From the NCBI GenBank assembly GCA_024280485.1, contig JAJRQB010000149.1, positions 1 through 42,413 on the forward strand: DNA of 42,413 bases. The letters run 5' to 3'. The notes beneath the pieces are model-generated. The model made no database searches. It saw nothing but the letters and a program-made list of their open reading frames with translations, and was not told where the DNA came from. The position numbers and the translations under genes are program-made. Source of the DNA: Deltaproteobacteria bacterium. GTDB taxonomy: Bacteria > Desulfobacterota > Desulfuromonadia > Desulfuromonadales > Geopsychrobacteraceae. Numbering within the stretch: position 1 is the first letter of the stretch; each line of letters begins with the position of its first letter. Shown here in pieces: positions 19,115 through 19,263 of the stretch.

Positions 19115-19152
19115 AAAAAAAAACGCTCCACCCCAAAAATTGGGATAGAGCG
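19115..19152 (-). terminator. Intrinsic terminator inside the glnK leader
   Basis: On the minus strand CGCTC plus TATCCCA pairs with TGGGGTG plus GAGCG (19124-19152), followed by nine T (19115-19123). It lies upstream of glnK and downstream of its promoter, so it would attenuate the operon unless antagonised. Its 5' strand CGCTC overlaps the 3' stem of the adjacent hexaloop hairpin. Confidence 0.85.
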
Positions 19153-19194
19153 CCTTTGCTCAAAGTCCATATCGGTTAGGAACGCCATTGTTCC
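19148..19194 (-). promoter_or_regulatory. ANTAR-type dual hexaloop antiterminator RNA of glnK
   Basis: The leader RNA has two hairpins, each with a six-base loop. P1 at 19179-19194 is GGAAC-AATGGC-GTTCC. P2 at 19148-19161 is GAGC-AAAGGC-GCTC. Both loops have A at position 1 and G at position 4, the established recognition rule for ANTAR RNA-binding proteins. P2 shares GCTC with the terminator, so P2 and the terminator cannot form together. A dimeric phosphorylated ANTAR regulator binding P1-P2 would let transcription reach glnK-amtB. The ANTAR regulator at 23845-24408 is the obvious partner (inference). Confidence 0.85.
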
Positions 19195-19247
19195 AGAATT
19201 GATTGTTGTTCCCGCCTGCCGTTATTCGAGCAAGCGCATATCAATTA

Positions 19248-19263
19248 AGCAGTGACCGTGCCA
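19248..19263 (-). promoter_or_regulatory. Sigma-54 (-24/-12) promoter of glnK-amtB
   Basis: The minus-strand sequence TGGCACGGTCACTGCT has GG and GC separated by exactly ten bases, matching the RpoN consensus. Transcription would start near 19237, giving a leader of about 158 bases that contains the antiterminator hairpins and terminator. Confidence 0.8.

Follow-up and report, generated by a model that had tools for sequence, protein, structure and literature searches.

The region upstream of the glnK-amtB operon is, judging from its letters, very probably a sigma-54-driven ANTAR antitermination leader. It lies on the minus strand of a stretch of 42,413 nucleotides (the window), where an original prediction had described an RpoN promoter, two hexaloop hairpins and an overlapping terminator in front of glnK and amtB. 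We located each of these elements, found the description accurate throughout, followed the elements through the relatives, and compared their occurrence with that of the ANTAR gene. The sole ANTAR protein of the genome is encoded in the same window, and the kinase gene that adjoins its gene in a close relative has been lost here.

Architecture of the leader

Read along the minus strand, the elements follow one another in the order promoter, P1, P2, terminator, T-run, AGGAGG, glnK and amtB. The predicted RpoN promoter is present as a sigma-54 (-24/-12) element of the GG-N10-GC form (TGGCACGGTCACTGC, 19249..19263). The antiterminator hairpins P1 (ggaac-AATGGC-gttcc, 19179..19194) and P2 (gagc-AAAGGC-gctc, 19148..19161) carry A1 and G4 in both loops, and both were delineated from the sequence together with covarying pairs. 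The intrinsic terminator (19119..19157) is a stem-loop of 18 pairs with a 3-nt loop, closed by a run of nine T (19115..19123). As had been proposed, the 3' stem of P2 serves as the 5' stem of the terminator: the terminator stem starts inside the P2 loop and takes in the P2 3' arm, so that loop and arm are common to both structures. The ribosome-binding site AGGAGG (19086..19091) is followed by glnK, which encodes a P-II protein (18741..19079, ATG at 19079; Pfam PF00543, 106.6 bits), and by the ammonium transporter gene amtB (17343..18722; PF00909, 336.9 bits).

The leader fold is unusually stable, with an MFE z-score of -3.7 and 0 of 200 shuffles equally stable. When the window RNA was cut before the 3' arm of the terminator, P2 formed with a probability of 0.88 and P1 with only 0.42. 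The promoter pattern TGGYR-N8-GC was found in all 29 of the glnK upstream regions compared (330 nt), against a mean of 1.78 and a maximum of 5 in mononucleotide shuffles, and a sigma-54 factor was found in the genome. Promoter, sigma factor and conserved leader together support the proposed two layers of control, sigma-54 initiation and RNA antitermination. A further sigma-54-like match, of the TGGCAC-N5-TGC type, was observed at 29891 on the minus strand of the window.

Motif and covariance searches

A loose scanner, defined by two A1/G4 hexaloops and an overlapping terminator, returned one element in the 42-kb window and at least one in 6 of 100 dinucleotide shuffles. When loop positions 1 and 4 were set to each of the 15 other letter pairs, five of these pairs likewise matched once in the window, so that the loose motif by itself lies within what chance can produce. 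With stems, linker and terminator tightened, A1/G4 was the only one of the 16 letter pairs with a match in the window (one), and a match appeared in none of 100 shuffles.

The search with a dual-hexaloop covariance model that had been suggested as a check was performed with two models. Model R1 gave the window leader 71.9 bits, a score that proves little because the window's own row is in the model. Model R2, trained on 16 rows that all lie outside the window's genus, ranked the leader first genome-wide at 47.9 bits (E 3.2e-9, the E-values of these models being rough owing to a short calibration), the runner-up scoring 18.1 bits. The comparison with leaders of other nitrogen genes in the same genome, which the original prediction had also envisaged, was carried out with both models and ended with this one leader; nothing else in the genome rose above background, both models having been trained on glnK leaders, so that diverged leaders might escape them. 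An Rfam scan of the window gave no family above threshold. The best sub-threshold match was P11 (25.9 bits, E 8e-4, against a gathering threshold of 70), a score at which the leader is not assigned to that family; we take P11 to be the same RNA as NalA.

Several other candidates were examined and rejected. The pattern AGCAANGRNGCT had 16 matches in the genome against 29 for a reversed-pattern control; 14 of the 15 matches other than the leader were viewed in context and none was a dual leader with a terminator, the remaining one (L038) being assessed through the scanner only. One locus (L046) passed the loose scanner, but its linker is 1 nt long and its terminator weak, and a second match in the window at 37028-37093 scored 14.6 and 10.4 bits, which is background. 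A lone strong A1/G4 hexaloop hairpin with the loop AATGAT, probably an opposite-strand terminator, was seen near position 1501 of L040 (G000:C110:30399-30410).

Conservation and covariation of the leader in relatives

Thirty amtB loci were fetched from 60 genomes, the window's included, and glnK lay upstream in 29. These 29 glnK leaders (the window and 28 relatives) comprised 22 with P1, P2 and the overlapping terminator, three with P2 and terminator only, and four with neither; the 22 complete leaders were aligned and the other seven left out. A letter pattern served to place P2; for P1, nine anchors were chosen by eye and the others followed an A1/G4 rule. The A1/G4 counts in this set are partly by construction, and a letter-blind hairpin survey was therefore added. 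Among hairpins with six-base loops within 190 nt before glnK, A1 and G4 occurred together in 47 of 91, where chance predicts 1 in 16; with one region per genus the count was 22 of 43.

In the 22-row alignment, 86.4% of the P1/P2 cells and 94.9% of the terminator cells were paired. For paired cells and the covariation score, 0 of 500 shuffles were as high, and the values exceeded those of all slid versions, both for P1/P2 and for the terminator. Both-sided changes were seen in 7 of the 11 P1/P2 pairs and 2 of the 8 terminator pairs; of 500 shuffles, 17 and 200, respectively, did as well on this measure, and 67 and 116 did so for further types of pair, so that neither measure is better than shuffles. 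The original prediction had named as a refutation compensatory changes in relatives that do not preserve the A1/G4 loops and the P2/terminator overlap. Both features are kept in 22 of the 29 glnK leaders, with the covariation score above the shuffles.

One column of the P2 3' arm is either C or U, and it illustrates the overlap at the level of single pairs. On the terminator side, the partner base follows it as G or A in 20 of 22 rows, the other two being one G-U and one unpaired; on the P2 side, the pairs are 11 G-C, 6 A-U and 4 G-U, with one row unpaired. Pairing in both directions is what two competing structures would need. The predicted full-length folds contained the terminator in 22/22 leaders and P2 in 0/22. 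With the RNA cut before the terminator 3' arm, the predicted minimum-energy folds had P1 in 18/22, P2 in 16/22 and both in 12/22.

The taxonomic reach of the leader was assessed by running R1 on the best 80 named amtB loci. Among the 18 whose titles read Desulfuromonadales, Deltaproteobacteria or similar, 16 scored above 20 bits, and 14 of these reached at least 48; several of the 18 come from genomes that also supplied R1. None of the 62 others exceeded 20 bits, the best reaching 18.9.

An outer helix around P1, with an asymmetric internal loop and varied sequence, was seen in about 11 of the 22 rows (L053, L054, L055, L057, L060, L061, L064, L067, L070, L071, L073); a value this high arose in 12 of 20000 permutations, or in 4 of 20000 when 19 rows were used. 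It was looked for in the window leader and is absent there. Such a helix could bring the two loops closer in about half of the rows. glnK leaders with P2 and a terminator and no recognisable P1, possibly single-hexaloop switches, were observed at L058, L062, L068, L126, L130, L153, L169 and L172-L174. Elsewhere, a leader match lies before draT-draG in G020 (L119), and matches below 35 bits lie before a nifB-like gene, urtA, the gene of a branched-chain amino-acid binding protein, and nifV (L121 in G047, L123 and L125 in G009, L128 in G031). Further weak R1 hits in relatives (L127, L129, L131-L134) were discarded, as they resembled ordinary terminators or chance matches.

The ANTAR regulator and its co-occurrence with the leader

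The genome yields a single ANTAR match, the protein encoded at 23845..24408 on the minus strand, a response regulator with an ANTAR output domain (Pfam Response_reg and ANTAR; PDB relatives 1s8n and 6wsh). The residues D8, D9, D53, T80 and K102, which we take to be those of receiver phosphorylation, are all present. Aligned to EutV in 6wsh, the regulator is identical at 9 of 12 residues that make RNA or subunit contacts; the exceptions are EutV R168, N173 and R177, which are replaced by Q, D and S. All four residues that hold G4 in EutV are kept (Arg142, Lys149, Glu160 and Tyr164, with roles as given in the relevant part of PMC8934654), the chain numbering of 6wsh appearing to run two ahead of the numbering used there. 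Receiver and ANTAR domain are thus combined with phosphorylation and RNA-contact residues as in the EutV/Rv1626 type.

The distribution of the leader was compared with that of the ANTAR gene in the 47 genomes with a readable glnK, in a table read by eye and by script. All 37 ANTAR-positive genomes had a leader (28 dual, nine P2-only), against 5 of the 10 ANTAR-negative ones; a leaderless glnK was thus found only where no ANTAR gene was detected. The association gives a Fisher value of 1.6e-4, or 1.2e-3 with the degenerate leader of G038 counted as present; the test ignores kinship, and the five leaderless genomes fall in three genera. In the main count G038 was scored leaderless despite a remaining P2-like hairpin, and G017 was scored leader-positive although the leader is missing from two of its three copies of glnK. 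G002 entered as ANTAR-positive although its match is partial, contains a stop codon and falls below the family cut-off. Across all 60 genomes at E 1e-3, leader and ANTAR gene occurred together in 34, the leader alone in 4, the ANTAR gene alone in 10 and neither in 12 (Fisher 5e-4). The four genomes with a dual leader and no detected ANTAR gene (G008, G029, G031, G052) are all fragmented, G029 and G052 being 99-100% complete.

By eye, the 3' half of the terminator and the T-run are all that remains of the leader in G024 and G033. Leaderless glnK operons of ANTAR-negative genomes were recorded at L056, L059, L065 and L271, the first two keeping the terminator 3' half only. ANTAR gene, glnK and amtB occur together in 17 of the 47 stretches around ANTAR genes, that of the window included.

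The regulator is the likely binder of the leader, as the original prediction had it: it is the sole ANTAR protein of the genome, its contact residues are mostly kept, and the leader is absent in relatives only where no ANTAR gene was detected.

Loss of the kinase gene and a possible rewiring of the input

The nearest relative of the window's genome, with 97% AmtB identity, is G007. There, a GAF-PAS-HisKA-HATPase kinase gene immediately precedes the ANTAR gene. Immediately behind the ANTAR gene follow a second ANTAR leader and a TorF-like porin gene, whose product scores 35.3 bits against TIGR02001, under the cut-off of that family. A GAF/PAS kinase gene likewise adjoins the ANTAR gene in G001 and G004. 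In the window, a 49-bp remnant of the sensor-kinase gene is left at 24471..24519 on the minus strand (blastn against L118 2341-2389, 97.96%), and the blastn blocks place a junction at 23815..23821, on the same strand, where the second leader and porin gene of the relative (L118 3382-4452) are missing. A search of the window's genome for an orthologue of the G007-type GAF/PAS kinase found none, the best match being 38% and confined to the kinase part. Both losses rest on one metagenome-like assembly of 178 contigs, in which misassembly is possible. The sigma-54-like promoter TGGCACGGCTTATGC (24535..24549, minus strand) now stands before the ANTAR gene alone, and in G007 the aligned block stops just before the kinase gene.

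Of the kinase genes, the one now closest to the ANTAR gene encodes a histidine kinase with two SBP_bac_3 stretches (Pfam; 21064..23571, minus strand). Its position weakly suggests a partner of the regulator; as a conserved partner it was rejected, as a full-length neighbour occurs only in the window and G007.

Two further genomes of the same genus, G003 and G006, encode a PAS domain fused to an ANTAR domain, with neither kinase nor receiver (L177:7976-8560 and L178:7971-8426), and the PAS of the G003 fusion resembles the PAS part of the kinase (52%). These fusions perhaps arose from a deletion spanning the kinase and regulator genes. By eye, the G003 fusion has His at the position of EutV Tyr164 and changes at those of Arg142/Lys143. 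A second ANTAR leader before a TorF-like putative porin gene was seen in two genomes of the genus (L118:3583-4467 and L120:2938-3859), above the family cut-off in L120 only.

We tentatively suggest that within one genus the switch may have stayed fixed while its input was rewired, with kinase and regulator in G001, G004 and G007 (presumably the ancestral state), the regulator alone in the window, and the PAS-ANTAR fusion in G003 and G006. The window's regulator might then work without a partner, through cross-talk, through another phosphate donor or independently of phosphorylation. Such a rewired input in this genus did not appear among the matches listed in searches of open-licence papers. 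A phosphorelay can be inferred for the relatives, and we do not assert one for the window's genome because the kinase gene beside the regulator has been lost.

Proposed mechanism and alternative explanations

Under nitrogen limitation, an NtrC-type activator would be expected to turn on sigma-54 RNA polymerase, with transcription predicted from the promoter to start near 19238. By default, the nascent RNA would form the 18-pair terminator, and transcription would halt in the T-run near 19115. By analogy with EutV, a dimer of the active regulator would grip the P1 and P2 hexaloops; P2 would then retain the 5' arm of the terminator, and the polymerase would continue into glnK-amtB. The gene of the regulator stands likewise behind a sigma-54-like promoter.

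The loss beside the ANTAR gene also admits a different outcome, in which the leader is intact and the regulator is on its way out: with the kinase gone, the ANTAR protein would be unswitched and the operon mostly attenuated or constitutively read through. The absence of an orthologue of the GAF/PAS kinase of G007, G001 and G004 fits this decay, as does the loss of the second leader and porin gene at the same locus. We consider it rather unlikely, given that the phosphorylation residues and the leader are intact and that the dN/dS of the ANTAR gene against G007 is 0.09, like that of amtB (0.05; one EamA neighbour has 0.11), although much of this divergence may predate the loss.

An attenuator or constitutive terminator that is independent of ANTAR, for example a small-RNA source like Pseudomonas P11, is very improbable. 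The weak P11 match and the dual leaders kept in four ANTAR-negative genomes speak for it, yet it would not predict the A1/G4 loops, the covariation or the leader-ANTAR distribution, and NalA is itself a NasT (ANTAR) leader as described in part of PMC12830290. It is also improbable that P2 and the terminator alone matter in this lineage, with P1 dispensable and one hexaloop enough. Nine ANTAR-positive genomes with P2 and terminator and no recognisable P1 (G012, G016, G017, G018, G019, G023, G026, G030, G034) agree with such a switch; against it, P1 is kept and covaries in the 22 aligned leaders, those of the window's genus included, and eut needs both loops according to sections of PMC3369931 and PMC8934654. 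A regulated dual-hexaloop leader remains our preferred reading of this region.

Comparison with known systems

Pelobacter carbinolicus and Geobacter are presumably kin of the window's order, and the Geobacter GnfK-GnfR pair reportedly exerts ANTAR-type control of nitrogen genes. The ANTAR leaders of both resemble the present one in serving nitrogen genes, and differ in that the window's genome has no nifH and only one leader. A profile search of its proteins found no nifH: two proteins exceed the PF00142 cut-off (52.8 and 25.6 bits), yet their best scores are as ATPases of the MinD-like and Mrp types, with 42.8 and 21.7 bits for the nifH model against 394, and the PF00142 search also matches in 14 of 14 control genomes. 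A role in nitrogen fixation therefore does not carry over to the present leader.

Part of Ramesh et al. (2012, PMC3369931) describes ANTAR substrates ahead of genes for P-II proteins, for ammonium and urea transporters and for nitrogenase, with three nif units so equipped in Pelobacter carbinolicus. ANTAR leaders before P-II and ammonium-transporter genes are thus already known from that account, and this leader adds a case. The combination of a sigma-54/NtrC promoter with an ANTAR-controlled leader is likewise already known, for NalA of Pseudomonas nirBD (PMC12830290, in part). NalA differs in that NasT is held by NasS, with no phosphorelay, and in that its target is nitrite reductase.

The EutV/eut leaders of Enterococcus share the two A1/G4 hexaloop hairpins, the P2-terminator overlap and an ANTAR protein of the response-regulator kind (from parts of PMC3369931 and PMC8934654). 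In contrast to eut, the window has a sigma-54 promoter, a 17-nt linker between P1 and P2, glnK-amtB as target and no dedicated kinase gene by the regulator. The linker measures 15-22 nt in 22 of 22 leaders (taken with a 5-pair P1 and a 4-pair P2), whereas that of eut leaders is 5-12 nt and induction is lost at 14 nt, as set out in a section of PMC3369931. The family definition of Ramesh et al. allows a variable linker in the portion of that paper concerned, and the 17-nt linker is therefore a departure from the eut range and not a failure of a defining feature.

With one regulator and one target, the system presents a clean case: ammonium uptake is probably under ANTAR control here, and the genome lacks nifH. 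The long linkers bear on the eut spacing rule. The relatives provide a natural experiment, as those with a leaderless glnK are those without a detected ANTAR gene. The loss of the kinase, together with the PAS-ANTAR fusions of sister species, offers a way to ask whether ANTAR regulators need phosphorylation.
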